The translations under genes and the position numbers were made by a program. Below the pieces are notes generated by a model. It saw only the letters and a list, made by a program, of their open reading frames with translations. It did no database searches and had not been told where the DNA came from. A DNA stretch of 64,000 nucleotides from Nitrospira sp. BO4 (GTDB lineage Bacteria > Nitrospirota > Nitrospiria > Nitrospirales > Nitrospiraceae), in contig JAMPUU010000017.1 in the NCBI GenBank assembly GCA_030144965.1, forward strand, positions 310,001 to 374,000, in the 5' to 3' direction. This document shows positions 34,261 through 45,248 of the stretch, one piece after another (the stretch's first letter is position 1; each line of letters opens with the position of its first letter).

Positions 34261-35475
34261 ATGTCCACGCCAGCACCACTTCAAATTCTGCTCTTCCGAC
34301 ACATGGAAGACGAAGCTGTTAAGCCTTATGAAGAGGCCATCCTGCGCGCCTTCCAAGGCGGAAAGGAACCCCGCAATTACCTGGCAACGGGCGAGGATTT
34401 AGGTATCCAATTAGAGGTATTCTCGGTCGCACCGGTGCTCGACGTGACAAAGACGCTTGACACATTTTGCCACACCGTGACGGTGGTGCTCGTGGATCAT
34501 GCATTACTTGATAAAACCAACGACGCTCTGTGGGATTGGCTTGCCGAGTGCTGGGTTTCCACAAGTGCATCGAAAGGCCGAAACGCAATGCTGGCTGTTC
34601 CGATGGACGAACGGGTTGGACATCGCTTCTCGGCTAAACGGTCGGCACTGGCGAGCCATCAGCTACTGTCGCTTCATGATCTTGGTGAGAGCGCTATACG
34701 TCCTGCCATGCTTTCGCTTCGTATTTTGCATGAGTGCAGAATACGCCTTGCTGAGGCACTCACGAACGTTCCAAGCCACAGTGCAGGGCATCTCCGGCTC
34801 TTCATCAGTCATGCGAAGATGGACGGGTTGCCGCTTGCACATGCATTGAAGCACCAAATCGATGCGGTGGGATGGTTGAAATCTTTTTACGATGCAGCCG
34901 ATCTCCCGTCCGGATGTGATTGGCAAAAGGAGCTAGAGCAGGGAGTTGGATCATCCCTCATTGTTATGCTCCGTACCGAGGTGTACGAAAGCCGACATTG
35001 GTGCCAGCAAGAAGTCCTCTGGGCCGACGAATACGCAACACCAGCAGTCCTAGTCGAAGCACGCACCGGTCTGAATCATCCAGCCGGGGCGCTCCCTTTT
35101 GATCGAATTCCGACCGTTCGAATTCCAGATGGAAATCTTGTACGGATTCTCTTCCTCGCATTAAGGGAGGGGCTCCGATTCCTTCTTTTTATGCGTCGTG
35201 TCGAGCAGATGAAACGGAACGGTGATTTGCCATCGCCCGTGGAGATTCGCGTTTTTTCTTTTCCACCAAGCATGTCGGCCCTACTGCGGGCCTGCCGTTC
35301 TCTGGCGGATTCAAAGGAGCCATCTACTACTCCGCGCCTCATCCTCTACCCCGATCCGCCGCTCCGGGCTGGCACTTATGAAGCTGCCTACGCCCTAGTC
35401 GCCATGAACGCACCATCGGACACACGCTTAGTGACGCCAAACACGCTTGCCGCTACGAGAGGAGCGACGTCGTGA
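34261..35475 (+). CDS. TIR-domain protein with unusual N-terminal region (first gene of TIR-SLOG operon)
   Basis: A 404-residue protein, first of a four-gene operon. Residues 178-300 are a TIR domain: LRLFISHAKMDGLPLA, a strand-helix pair, then SSLIVMLRTEVYESRHWC and E251 in WCQQEVLW, the candidate catalytic Glu of NAD-cleaving TIRs. Residues 1-170 look like another alpha/beta domain (LQILLFRHMEDEAVKPYEEA, VTVVLVDHALL), perhaps a degenerate TIR. The C-terminal 100 residues are unassigned. Its TGA overlaps the next GTG by 4 nt. Composition is lower in GC than the flanks. By family knowledge a TIR here cleaves NAD or makes a cyclic-ADPR-type signal; which one cannot be told. Confidence 0.75.
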   Translation: MSTPAPLQILLFRHMEDEAVKPYEEAILRAFQGGKEPRNYLATGEDLGIQLEVFSVAPVLDVTKTLDTFCHTVTVVLVDHALLDKTNDALWDWLAECWVSTSASKGRNAMLAVPMDERVGHRFSAKRSALASHQLLSLHDLGESAIRPAMLSLRILHECRIRLAEALTNVPSHSAGHLRLFISHAKMDGLPLAHALKHQIDAVGWLKSFYDAADLPSGCDWQKELEQGVGSSLIVMLRTEVYESRHWCQQEVLWADEYATPAVLVEARTGLNHPAGALPFDRIPTVRIPDGNLVRILFLALREGLRFLLFMRRVEQMKRNGDLPSPVEIRVFSFPPSMSALLRACRSLADSKEPSTTPRLILYPDPPLRAGTYEAAYALVAMNAPSDTRLVTPNTLAATRGATS

Positions 35476-36404
35476 CCGTTGCTTACCGTCCGCTCTCGGG
35501 ATGCATCGTAAATCTGTCCATCTCGGAAAGCGACGATAGTGAGCGCCGGGGGTTTCCGTCCTGGCAGGTGAACCGCGTCATTGTACAAGTTGTTGCCGCA
35601 CTCTTCGGTCAGGGTGCAAGTGTAGTTTTCGGTCATGATTGGCGTGAGGACGGAGTTATGGAAGCGGTTTATGGCTTCGCCCGGAGCGTCCAAGCACCAT
35701 TACCTCTATCGCCCGCGCAATCTGCAGCTGAGGCGCAGCCATTGCTCAAGAATTTGCTCCCTTGGCCTGACAAACCACTCCTTGCTGAGCAGGATCTTAA
35801 ACAGCTAAGTGCAACTTTACGCGTAGAGTCAGCAGGCCTGCCAAGGGAGCTGCGGGCTTTTGACGAACAGGCCCGACACACTGGACCTAACAGTCCGCTC
35901 TATCGGTACATTCGAGCTAGGGGCCTCACTTTTCTTCGCCACCGCCTCAATGATGATTGTCATGTTCGACTATGTCTCGGTGGCCGAAAATCGGGTTTTG
36001 CCGGACGGTATCCCGGCGTTGTCGAGGAAGCATTGCTGGCAGTGACTGACGCGAAGCCACTGTATCTGGCCGGCCTCCTTGGAGGCGCGACGGAACAAGT
36101 AGTTGACGCCATCGCGGGGAAGACAATAACGGATGATTTCTGCCATCTTACAAGTCTCCAGGATTTGTACAAAACCCCGCCAATCAAAGAATACGATGCA
36201 GCGACTTATGAGGACCGCTCGATCGATAGAGTCGTCGTCTGGACAAAGTTTGCCAGAACCAGCCGGGAGGGGCTTGCAGCCGCAAACGGTCTAACGGTTG
36301 AAGAAAATAATGAGCTTTTTTATACGCCGATTATTGATCGTGTGATCGAGTTGGTACTCATTGGCCTATCTCGCCTTCGGCCAGGTTGGACTCGACGTAG
36401 CTGA
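35472..36404 (+). CDS. SLOG-fold nucleotide-sensor protein (second gene of TIR-SLOG operon)
   Basis: A 310-residue protein with a Rossmannoid SLOG-like fold. Seen are an N-terminal strand and loop (GCIVNLSISESDDS..), a G-rich turn GASVVFGHDW near residues 48-56, and the motif CLGGRKSGFAGRYPGVVEEALLA (split at residue 178) which matches the GG...G.YPG..EEA pattern of SLOG families. SLOG domains bind nucleotides and in Thoeris ThsA sense the TIR-made signal. It has no fused effector. It begins with GTG, overlapping the TIR gene by 4 nt. This SLOG subfamily I cannot name with certainty. Confidence 0.65.
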   Translation: MTVAYRPLSGCIVNLSISESDDSERRGFPSWQVNRVIVQVVAALFGQGASVVFGHDWREDGVMEAVYGFARSVQAPLPLSPAQSAAEAQPLLKNLLPWPDKPLLAEQDLKQLSATLRVESAGLPRELRAFDEQARHTGPNSPLYRYIRARGLTFLRHRLNDDCHVRLCLGGRKSGFAGRYPGVVEEALLAVTDAKPLYLAGLLGGATEQVVDAIAGKTITDDFCHLTSLQDLYKTPPIKEYDAATYEDRSIDRVVVWTKFARTSREGLAAANGLTVEENNELFYTPIIDRVIELVLIGLSRLRPGWTRRS

Positions 36405-36425
36405 CTTGAAAAGAAGAAATGTAGA

Positions 36426-36890
36426 ATGCCAGCTAATGTTTTCATAAGTTTTGATCATGATGATCAGCAGCAAGTCGCGGGTTTCAAGCTTCTAAAGAAT
36501 AATCCGAACCATCCGCTGGATTTTCAGGATCATTCATTGAAAGATGCGGTCCGGGACCGAAGCGGAAAACCAATAAAGTACTCACCATCCGACGTACGAT
36601 CGAAACCCGTTCGAGATGAGATCATAAGGAAATTTGACCGCGCATCTAAGCTGGTGGTATTGATCGGCGACAATACGCATAACAGTGAGTGGGTAGATTG
36701 GGAGATCAAAACCTTTTACGAGATAAAGGAGAAGCTGTCTGGAGAAAATACATGGAAGCGCATTCGAGGCATGACACTCAAGGGTTGTGAGCACGCCACT
36801 ATCCCGAACGCTTTATATAACGGTCGATCTACACAATGGTTGGCGTGGGACTCTGAAGCTTTGGACAAGTGGTTAGACAGCGTCCCATAA
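36426..36890 (+). CDS. ThsB-like TIR protein (third gene of TIR-SLOG operon)
   Basis: A 154-residue protein of the TIR-like DUF1863/ThsB type. It opens with NVFISFDHDDQQQVAGFKLL, has HPLDFQDHSLKDAV, then LVVLIGDNTHNSEWVDWEI with the presumed catalytic E93. In Thoeris, ThsB proteins of this form recognise phage and make a cyclic ADP-ribose isomer. It follows the SLOG gene by 21 bp. The coding sequence is clearly AT-richer than the core genome. This is the best match to a known defence family in the operon. Confidence 0.8.
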   Translation: MPANVFISFDHDDQQQVAGFKLLKNNPNHPLDFQDHSLKDAVRDRSGKPIKYSPSDVRSKPVRDEIIRKFDRASKLVVLIGDNTHNSEWVDWEIKTFYEIKEKLSGENTWKRIRGMTLKGCEHATIPNALYNGRSTQWLAWDSEALDKWLDSVP

Positions 36891-36918
36891 TACCTATGTC
36901 TGGCTGCGAGATAGAGTC

Positions 36919-37476
36919 ATGGCAGGTATCAATAGAGCGCAGTACGAGAACCGACAGCTTGCCAAAGCAAAGGCATTATTGCGCAAACCGTGTATCTTTC
37001 TCTCTCATATATCTGTCGACAAAAAGGCAGCAACAGCGATCGGCGATTACATAACGAGGCATGGCGACATCGACATTTATTTGGATATTAATGACCAGAA
37101 GTTGCAAGAAGCCATCAGAAGAGGCGATCCAACTGGTATTACGCAATTCATCGAGCAAGGCCTAGCGTATTCAACGCATATCATGTGCCTGGTTTCTGCC
37201 GATACCGTAAGCTCGTGGTGGGTTCCTTATGAGCTAGGATTTGGGAAGAGCAGTGGGAAATATTTATCGACTTTAAAGTTCAAGGGTGATGTCGATCTAC
37301 CGGCATATTTGCAAATAAGCGAAGTTCTTTGGGGCACAAAGAGCCTCAACCAATATTTGAAGGACGTGGGGCGTGGTTTCCAGAAGGCGACAGAAATTGA
37401 GCACCTCACAGAAAGTCTCATCACACATACTACGCAGAGGCATCCCTTGGACGAATACCTGGATTGGAAGGTTTAG
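36919..37476 (+). CDS. TIR-domain protein (fourth gene of TIR-SLOG operon)
   Basis: A 185-residue TIR protein. The fold is seen in CIFLSHISVDKKAATAIGDY, DIDIYLDIND, QFIEQGLAYSTHIMCLVS and WWVPYELGFGKSSG with E105 as candidate active-site Glu. It is closer to ordinary bacterial TIR proteins than to ThsB. The tail TTQRHPLDEYLDWKV is unlike any motif I know. It lies 28 bp after the ThsB-like gene. Three different TIR proteins with one SLOG protein is an unusual mix. Confidence 0.78.
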   Translation: MAGINRAQYENRQLAKAKALLRKPCIFLSHISVDKKAATAIGDYITRHGDIDIYLDINDQKLQEAIRRGDPTGITQFIEQGLAYSTHIMCLVSADTVSSWWVPYELGFGKSSGKYLSTLKFKGDVDLPAYLQISEVLWGTKSLNQYLKDVGRGFQKATEIEHLTESLITHTTQRHPLDEYLDWKV

Positions 37477-42309: not shown

Positions 42310-42535
42310 TTCTTAACAGCGATGCATCGACTTCGTGAGAAGCTCCGGCATGCCTCGTCCTTATTTCGTTCGAAGGGCTGTTGCCGGTGGACACCCCGAC
42401 GCGGGATAATGTGTCCCTGAACGAACAACGCGCACGGGATCAATCAGGGTGCAAGAACAAATACCCTCCCCCCTATCTCTTTCTGAGGGGTGAGTGACGG
42501 GTCCTAGTGATGAGAAGACGGAGGGCCGATTAGTC

Positions 42536-43480
42536 ATGAATCTGAAGGCAGAGGATCAGCGGACTGCGCCCAGAATTTGTGTGCAATTGCGCGCCATGGT
42601 GTCGGGCTCCGTACAGTCCGAAGGGAAAGGCACCATTCTCGATCTCTCCACGAGCGGGTGCCGGCTGGAGAGCCAGCTCCTTATGTTGCCCGGCCTCTCG
42701 TTGGAGCTGCGCATCGCGGTCCCCGGCTTGGAGTGGGCGCTGATGATCGATGGGGCTGATGTGCAGTGGGCGAACGAGGACACCGCCGGGCTGGCGTTTG
42801 TTCGCATGAGAGAGACCGAACGGCAGCGACTCGACGACGTGATGACCGCTCGGTTCGCGAGGACGTCTGAGGACGGCGACGGCGAACAGGTCGGGCCGGT
42901 GCCGTTTGAGTTCCAAGGGCTGGAAGCCGTGCTGTCCAAAGATCCTGAACTCGCCGTCAGCAAGGGACTGGCGTGGTTCGCTCAAGACCGGGCGGAATTC
43001 CGCTTTCGAGGCGGGAGCCTGCTCAACAGAGCGTTCCCCACCTGCACGCCCGAGTTCGCGGCTGCGCTCGGCGAGTTGGTCAACGCCGGCGGCGACACGG
43101 AGGCAGAGTTCGCTTTGGCGCTTCTCCAGAACTATCTTGGTTCGACATCCACCGACGGTGTCTTGAAAGAAATTGTGTCGCGATTTCCACATGACGATCG
43201 CACAATGGGCGGAGTCCGGAATTGCATCAATAGCCCCGGCGTGGTCTCCGGTGAATTCGGACTGGCGGAAGCCTGGCGGGTTAGGAAGGAGTCGCTGACG
43301 CGCTGGCTCACAGACGAACGACAGACTGTCCAAGCGTTCGCCGAGCAGCACATTGCCGAGCTCGACCGAATGATTGTGGCGGAGCGGCGCCGTGTGGAGG
43401 CCGAACGGGAACTGCGCGAGCGGAGTCGCCATGCGGACGAGTCAGGCCACGATCACGGGTACAGGCCGAAACCCTTCTGA
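42536..43480 (+). CDS. PilZ-domain protein with C-terminal domain
   Basis: A 314-residue protein from the ATG at 42536, which has GGAGGG about 12 bp upstream. The N-terminal 105 residues form a PilZ domain, the c-di-GMP receptor fold: RTAPR (the RxxxR) and LDLSTSGCRLES (the D/NxSxxG). The rest is helical and unassigned (FEFQGLEAVLSKDPELAVS, RFPHDDRTMGGVRNC) with an Arg/Glu-rich C-terminal coil. It is likely a soluble c-di-GMP effector for motility, attachment or export. Confidence 0.78.
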   Translation: MNLKAEDQRTAPRICVQLRAMVSGSVQSEGKGTILDLSTSGCRLESQLLMLPGLSLELRIAVPGLEWALMIDGADVQWANEDTAGLAFVRMRETERQRLDDVMTARFARTSEDGDGEQVGPVPFEFQGLEAVLSKDPELAVSKGLAWFAQDRAEFRFRGGSLLNRAFPTCTPEFAAALGELVNAGGDTEAEFALALLQNYLGSTSTDGVLKEIVSRFPHDDRTMGGVRNCINSPGVVSGEFGLAEAWRVRKESLTRWLTDERQTVQAFAEQHIAELDRMIVAERRRVEAERELRERSRHADESGHDHGYRPKPF

Positions 43481-44018: not shown

Positions 44019-44311
44019 ATCGGGGTCGGTCTCCTTTCCGTGGGGTTTGCTGTACAACAAGTATGCGTGGGACTACCGCAACACTTACCGGCTTTTTTGA
44101 GCGATTGCAAATTACCCGCTGTGCTGTCTCTTGGTTTTCGTGTCAGGGCGTAGGAACCCACAGGACGTTGCCGGCGCGAAGCAACGTGCGGGCTCAACTA
44201 TTCCTTTTACCGGAACTTTTACTGACATTTTCGGTTTGTCCTGTTGATTTTCCGTTGCGCTCGGCGTAGGAATTGGCACCGACGTGCAACTCTAAAGGAG
44301 AGGAGATACGT

Positions 44312-44764
44312 ATGGCGATTTTGCGCGATCGTCCCTATGGCCAGTTCAACTTTCTGATCGACCTTGGCAACGGAAACACCCAGGGGCCGCAGGCAGGCTT
44401 CCAGGAGGTGAGCAACATCGGCATGGAAGCCGTGGTGGTCGAATACCGCAACGGCAACTCCAAGGAAAACAATGTGATGAAGCTGACAGGCATGAACAAG
44501 ACCAGCGATGTCACACTGAAACGCGGGATCATCGGCTCGCTGGATCTCTATGCATGGCTCGACCAGATCCGCAACGGCGACCAGAACGCCGTGAGAACCG
44601 TGACCATCCAGCTGCAGAATGAAAATCGCACCGACGTGGTACAGACCTGGAAGCTCTTACGCGCGCGCATCATCAAGCATACGAGCGGTCCACTCAACGC
44701 AAAGGGGACCGACGTCGCGATGGAAGAACTGGTGTTAGCCTACGAGCGCCTGGAAATGGAGTAG
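44312..44764 (+). CDS. Phage tail-tube (gp19-like) protein, copy 1
   Basis: A 150-residue protein of the T4-gp19-like tail-tube family seen in phage tails and contractile injection systems (PVC/Afp). Typical: YGQFNFLIDLGNG, FQEVSNIGMEAVVVEYRNG and MKLTGMNKTSDVTLKRGII, then YAWLDQIRNG and VAMEELVLAYERLEME. It forms stacked hexamer rings. AAAGGAGAGG precedes the ATG. It is followed after 31 bp by a paralogue, but no sheath, baseplate or terminase gene is near. Confidence 0.85.
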   Translation: MAILRDRPYGQFNFLIDLGNGNTQGPQAGFQEVSNIGMEAVVVEYRNGNSKENNVMKLTGMNKTSDVTLKRGIIGSLDLYAWLDQIRNGDQNAVRTVTIQLQNENRTDVVQTWKLLRARIIKHTSGPLNAKGTDVAMEELVLAYERLEME

Positions 44765-44795
44765 TGCCCAGGTTTTTCTCTGGAGTGAAGACATT

Positions 44796-45248
44796 ATGGC
44801 TGTCGTCAGTGAACGACCTTACAGAAATTCGAATTTTCTCGTGGATTTTGGGCGAGGAGACAGCGCTTCGAAGCTTGCAGGCTTTGCCGAGGTGATCTTC
44901 CCGGATTTCATCATCGACCAGCCCGAGGGCCATCCGCGTCCTCACACGGTGCCGCAGCCTGTGGAACAGGCTCAAGTTGCTGCTGCCAATCGTCTTGTCC
45001 TCAAGCGAGGAGTCATGGGGTCTATGGATCTCTATGCCTGGTGGGATGAGACTCGGAAGGGAAGAGCGCCTCGACCGCGCACCGTAAAAGTTGAACTTCT
45101 GGGAGAGGACCAGTCAACCGTGGTGCTGACCTGGCGCTTCGACAATGTTCGTCCGGTGAGTCTTTCGTACTCGCCCTTGCGTGCCATGGACAGCGGCATC
45201 CTCATGGAGACGCTCATCTTGGAATTTGGCAGGATGGAGATGCTGTGA
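44796..45248 (+). CDS. Phage tail-tube (gp19-like) protein, copy 2
   Basis: A 150-residue paralogue. It shows YRNSNFLVDFGRGDSASKLAGF, VLKRGVMGSMDLYAWWDETRKG and LMETLILEFGRMEML. In contractile injection systems one such copy often caps or starts the tube. Here it has diverged in the middle, which suits such division of labour. With copy 1 it forms a two-gene unit. Confidence 0.82.
   Translation: MAVVSERPYRNSNFLVDFGRGDSASKLAGFAEVIFPDFIIDQPEGHPRPHTVPQPVEQAQVAAANRLVLKRGVMGSMDLYAWWDETRKGRAPRPRTVKVELLGEDQSTVVLTWRFDNVRPVSLSYSPLRAMDSGILMETLILEFGRMEML

Follow-up and report, generated by a model that had tools for sequence, protein, structure and literature searches.

Organization of the tube gene pair

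The window analyzed here is a 64,000-nucleotide stretch of the Nitrospira sp. BO4 genome (GCA_030144965.1, contig JAMPUU010000017.1, positions 310,001 to 374,000 of the forward strand). The genome comprises 4.7 Mb on 30 contigs. Two gp19-type tube genes, designated A and B, lie in the window with the following neighboring features.

42494..43480, + strand: PilZ-domain protein (PF07238), the upstream syntenic neighbor of the pair
44296..44311, + strand: putative ribosome-binding stretch before A, GGAGAGGAGATACGT
44312..44764, + strand: protein A (150 aa), inner-tube protein of the gp19 type, belonging to the main tubes of an Acidobacteriota eCIS lineage
44765..44795, + strand: A-B intergenic gap, 31 nt, holding the Shine-Dalgarno-like CTGGAGTG
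44796..45248, + strand: protein B (150 aa), a paralogue of A in which the central beta-hairpin is missing

The tandem of gp19-type tube proteins described in the initial annotation was confirmed. Both open reading frames were found where it had placed them, and both exceeded the PF06841 cut-off of 28.2 bits (A, 116 bits; B, 56.4 bits). With TIGR02241, A scored 96 bits, above the cut-off of 62.4, and B scored 43.9 bits, below it. PF06841 was the sole Pfam match of either protein at an E-value of 0.001; the Hcp family profile of type VI secretion systems (T6SS) gave none. A and B are approximately 34% identical to each other.

The gap between the genes measures 27-32 nt in all seven Nitrospira species compared, and A and B are probably co-transcribed. 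The GGAGAGGAGATACGT stretch before A is mostly conserved at the syntenic Nitrospira loci. A promoter scan yielded no sigma-70-like sites, and two terminator-like sites where 1.7 were expected. The PilZ gene lies directly upstream of the pair, at 60 nt, in G001 and G074. It was rejected as a part of the module because its synteny with the pair is confined to Nitrospira by tblastn and it is absent at the other loci (E-value 1e-3).

Surroundings of the pair and the contractile injection locus of the genome

A tblastn search using tube, sheath, Pvc16, AAA, LysM, spike, gp25 and baseplate-J queries covered the window together with its 20-kb flanks. Beside the pair, the sheath, Pvc16, LysM, spike, gp25 and baseplate-J queries remained unmatched over this whole region; the AAA query gave one generic similarity (30%), located in the flank approximately 52 kb upstream of A. 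The absence of machine genes nearby, as initially proposed, was thus upheld for sheath, baseplate and spike in the window and its 20-kb flanks, and for AAA it has to be qualified by this one generic match. The genes by which an eCIS locus is recognized (sheath, gp25 and Pvc16) do not adjoin the pair within the window and 20 kb of flank and occur on contig C26 only.

On searching the rest of the genome for sheath, gp25 and AAA genes, as the initial annotation had proposed, these were found together in a complete locus on C26. All matches of this genome to PF04984 (sheath), PF04965 (gp25) and PF14065 (Pvc16) are on that contig.

C26:389579-410000 (L005/L006): eCIS-like locus with a 796-aa sheath and a single gp19-family tube gene

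This tube gene, the third gp19 gene of the genome, immediately follows the only sheath gene and is itself followed by open reading frames with Pvc16_N, AAA, gp25 and Baseplate_J domains. C26 therefore holds a complete eCIS-like locus with a tube of its own. Its tube is approximately 26% identical to A and forms a far-off long branch in the tube tree. As seen by eye, response-regulator-like open reading frames lie immediately upstream in this locus.

The initial annotation had also envisaged a complete injection locus elsewhere, with the pair as its silent duplicate. The first part proved correct. The second was ruled out by the identity of 26% and by the purifying selection acting on both genes (see below).

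Occurrence of the pair

A gp19 scan of 79 Nitrospira genomes detected a tandem of one strong and one weak match in eight of them (G000 and G065, which are of the same species, G001, G006, G027, G069, G074 and G077). The locus is syntenic in six of the seven species, with varying completeness, in the order PilZ, VOC, pair, CreA, Sel1. In G069 the pair sits at a different place, and its A and B are 79% and 46% identical to those of the window, respectively.

Approximately 85,000 species genomes were scanned on the basis of the B alignment. At least 17 loci were obtained, four of the Nitrospira genomes included; this number is a lower bound, since two peptide patterns only were used. Both genes are present at 16 of the 17 loci, so that they are inherited jointly, and the remaining one (L066, Anaerolineaceae) carries a single relative. 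Altogether, the arrangement was found in 19 genomes besides this one, giving 20 carriers of which 12 lie outside Nitrospira. Such recurrence is more than expected by chance. The carriers outside Nitrospira are Gammaproteobacteria, several Betaproteobacteria/Burkholderiales, Pelotalea chapellei (in which B precedes A), Holophagaceae and other Acidobacteriota, and one "Klebsiella" bin. Their A proteins are 70-80% and their B proteins 48-63% identical to the window copies. In the last of these, a bin labelled Klebsiella pneumoniae (L067:7569-8435), the pair is damaged, A having no detectable start and B containing a stop. The species label of this bin is probably wrong.

Outside Nitrospira, neighboring gene families recurring at three loci or more are confined to the Holophagaceae group; the second-largest neighbor group in that comparison consists of reverse-strand open reading frames mostly overlapping the pair itself. 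No fixed cargo gene adjoins the pair at any of the loci compared. Other groups were sampled evenly in three draws (369, 395 and 396 genomes), and scores at the level of A (279 bits or more) were reached in four known carriers only. The next-best scores in the first two draws were 180 and 118 bits, and the Acidobacteriota draw contained three complete eCIS loci at 217-267 bits. The scarcity of A-level scores in these draws indicates that the pair is rare but enriched in Nitrospira. It is a two-gene unit under selection, apparently a mobile one, in genomes of which most are without the machine.

A prophage origin was rejected, as tblastn of A against 50,697 phage records returned zero matches and no viral contig carrying B was found. 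Five viral contigs encode relatives of A, which are only 35-49% identical; one of these (L082) has CIS-like genes as seen by eye. A plasmid origin was likewise rejected, the matches in 34 plasmid records all being below 60%. The best of these (47%, Rhodococcus opacus) lies within a sheath-tube locus.

Descent and selection

The tube tree (59 sequences) places every A and B row within the main tubes of contractile injection systems (CIS), with the tubes from complete Acidobacteriota eCIS loci as neighbors (node support 100/96). The A of L062 falls outside the other 17 A rows. A is 73-74% identical to the tubes of the complete loci L157 and L158, and 66-74% when L159 is included. Only one alignment column differs between the orphan A rows and the Acidobacteriota eCIS main tubes. 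Given this and its position in the tree, A is a nearly unaltered eCIS main tube. In L157, L158 and L159 the tube gene stands between two sheath genes, accompanied by a second tube, LysM, spike and other baseplate genes; unlike these tubes, A stands with B alone.

The B rows form a single clade (100/99) with the single gene of L066 as sister, and they stand apart from the second tubes of CIS loci, nine in number, which have their own clade. The tree thus identifies B as a fast-evolving duplicate of the A-type main-tube lineage. Neither the tree nor alignments A5 and A7 include the B of L067, which has an in-frame stop; the A of L067, for which no start was found, was used in alignment A4 and neither in A6 nor in the tree.

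Pairwise omega values among six Nitrospira species indicate purifying selection. They were 0.08-0.21 for A, and of the 15 values for B, 14 fell within 0.16-0.26; the last (G001-G074) exceeded 1 on very few changes. G069 was not part of the omega set, and the alignments were made without G065, which is of the same species and 100% identical.

Structure models and the missing hairpin

The model of A (pLDDT 73.1) shows the tube fold with strands at residues 38-46 and 55-64. In the model of B (pLDDT 73.8), residues 42-62 are disordered; the confidence of both models is intermediate. Residues ~39-66 of B form a linker in place of the conserved beta-hairpin represented by residues 38-64 of A. This linker measures 18-30 residues in all 18 B rows and is rich in proline and alanine in many of them. 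All A rows keep the hairpin region at a fixed length.

The nearest solved sequence relatives of A, at 35-37% identity, are the AlgoCIS tube Alg1 (7adz), which is also its top Foldseek match, and the Anabaena tube All3324 (7b5h). Both belong to full contractile systems, and A does not. The top three Foldseek matches of B are rings from the baseplate end, namely Afp5, Pvc5 and chain Y of 7aeb. When B was aligned using VIA-align, initiator rings tied with main tubes and Hcp; the Foldseek ranking was therefore rejected as proof that B is an initiator. The CIS5 equivalog model scored 30.5 bits on B, its cut-off being 260. The suggested role of B resembles that of these initiator or adaptor rings, that is, a first tube ring. 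B differs from them in coming from the main-tube lineage, not from the second tubes of related CIS loci, and in missing the hairpin.

Residues 38-64 of A would correspond to strand beta2, the loop and strand beta3 of the tube proteins treated in a review (PMC8718954). As described there, removal of the beta2-beta3 loop from the tube protein of phage YSD1 leads to mostly hexameric rings, and the loop is interpreted as both restraining free ring formation and making contact between rings; some tube proteins, such as SPP1 gp17.1, polymerise alone. In AlgoCIS, a ring formed by the tube-like proteins Alg5/Alg7 is reported to be where the tube begins (PMC8894135). If the hairpin of A is equated with the YSD1 loop, B would form rings without a baseplate and with one stacking contact fewer, and could thus act as seed or cap.

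Three lone gp19-type genes were recorded besides the pairs. In G974, such a gene of the A lineage (L163:9883-10275, + strand) encodes 130 aa; approximately 20 residues are missing from its hairpin region, which is also the part lost in B. The Anaerolineaceae gene (L066:8001-8450, + strand), sister to all B, retains the hairpin and has metabolic-looking neighbors. A gene of G1239 (L197:9591-10049, + strand), 32% identical to A, lies away from the eCIS locus of its genome.

Machine genes in the carrier genomes

Sheath, gp25 and Pvc16 genes were sought in all 20 carriers. For the sheath, PF04984 was used along with a custom profile built from seven related sheaths, the L160 sheath being left out. 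By both profiles the sheath is absent from 13 of the 20 (G001, G006, G027, G074, G077, G175, G176, G177, G179, G181, G184, G185 and G187), and all three families are absent from 11, most carriers being draft or metagenome genomes in which such absence carries less weight. G001, which is among these 11, is a single contig and 99% complete. G176 and G184 are without sheath yet have a gp25-family gene, which in G176 (Pelotalea) lies among open reading frames resembling type VI genes as seen by eye.

The other seven carriers have a sheath gene, together with gp25 and Pvc16 in G000, G065, G180 and G183, with gp25 in G178, and without either in G182 and G069. In none of the flanks examined does a sheath adjoin the pair. 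The sheath of G069 (L050:8756-10702, + strand) is an intact, lone gene encoding 649 aa with both sheath domains. Neither a tube nor a baseplate gene was found beside it, nor gp25 or Pvc16 in the genome. With the sheath of the eCIS type ancestral to A it shares 59% identity, and it lies on a different contig from the lone pair.

Proposed function and alternative explanations

That several Nitrospira species and scattered bacteria of other phyla have kept the pair unaccompanied by the other machine genes suggests that it probably builds something of its own. The initial annotation had left a choice between split-off parts of a complex encoded elsewhere and a new tube-only structure. The latter, a putative structure, is favored by the distant C26 tube (26% identity), by purifying selection and by the 13 sheath-less carriers out of 20.

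Our leading reading, held tentatively and with somewhat less than even confidence, is that A and B constitute a two-gene tube module, derived from an eCIS main-tube gene and duplicated, in which rings of B seed or cap a tube of A. The source would be the main inner-tube gene of an Acidobacteriota-type eCIS, and after duplication the module would have come to work without sheath, baseplate or spike. A, retaining every tube interface, is predicted to stack as hexameric rings. In phage tube proteins the hairpin, which B lacks, joins ring to ring and prevents ring closure by free monomers. B may consequently close into rings unaided, short of one stacking contact, and such rings might take over the part of a baseplate in seeding the A tube, might cap the tube, or might do both. 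The cellular role could perhaps be that of an internal or released tube which holds or carries cargo. The fuller proposal, a horizontally spread, baseplate-free two-gene tube system in which A polymerises on the hairpin-less duplicate B as seed and/or cap, is possible but must be regarded as rather doubtful.

Several other explanations were weighed. The fold of A and B is shared with T6SS Hcp, and a mixed A-B ring or short stack might chaperone or carry a protein, whether secreted or internal, in the manner of paralogous Hcp rings, with no long tube. B aligned to several Hcp proteins with Z values of ~10-11.6, and structures identified by title as the Bacteroides fragilis Hcp2-Hcp3 heterohexamer, also with an effector, are among the matches of both models (9vne, 9vnd), which sets a precedent for rings that include a divergent paralogue. 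The lack of a fixed cargo gene at the loci compared would also fit. However, A is hardly altered from a genuine eCIS tube and retains the tube hairpin, which suggests selection for stacking, and gp25/TssE is missing from most carriers. We consider this explanation unlikely. Use of the pair in trans, as spare rings for a CIS or an orphan sheath encoded elsewhere (C26; the G069 sheath), appears improbable. It would be compatible with the full CIS of G000 and G065 and with G069, where an intact sheath related at 59% to that of the source eCIS occurs in a genome devoid of gp25 and Pvc16. Against it stand the 13 carriers without any sheath, the low identity of the C26 tube to A and the absence of an adjoining sheath from every flank examined.

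Decay of a CIS or prophage into a functionless remnant is already disfavored and is given a low probability. Damage is evident in L067, with its stop in B and undetected start of A, and G069 resembles scattered CIS pieces, but both genes are under purifying selection, the same two genes and no others have been retained in four phyla, and the 50,697 phage records were without a match. Interference with phages, whereby surplus tube subunits would poison or block contractile tails, is very improbable. A two-gene unit with changing neighbors and a patchy distribution over phyla might suggest it; however, no PADLOC family matched A or B, phage tubes are distant from A, and the neighbors, judged by eye, are not defense genes.

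Tube proteins are normally studied within contractile machines, in which assembly starts on a baseplate and function depends on a sheath. A selected pair without baseplate or sheath would be a natural minimal system in which to ask what starts a tube, what ends it and how it is put to use without contraction, and a compact two-component tube for protein engineering. Should the seed/cap system exist as proposed, it would represent an injection-tube fold domesticated for a task without contraction. Scans that demand a full eCIS locus miss tube genes that have left the machine. In the literature searched, most subscription papers lying outside it, no paper describing a stand-alone tube pair was found, nor any on the proteomics of Nitrospira phage tail proteins. 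In an Accumulibacter secretome, a gp19-domain protein is reported as the most abundant member of one cluster of proteins that possibly form aggregates (PMC12019908).

A further group of genes was observed in the window at 34261-37476 (+ strand). Four adjacent genes encode a TIR protein (PF13676), a SLOG cluster-2 protein (PF18163) and two more TIR proteins. The last three were unmatched in the same-species locus L047, where 3.3 kb upstream of the first shared gene is covered. The last two TIR proteins have ThsB-type matches, and the four genes look like a TIR/SLOG defense cluster.
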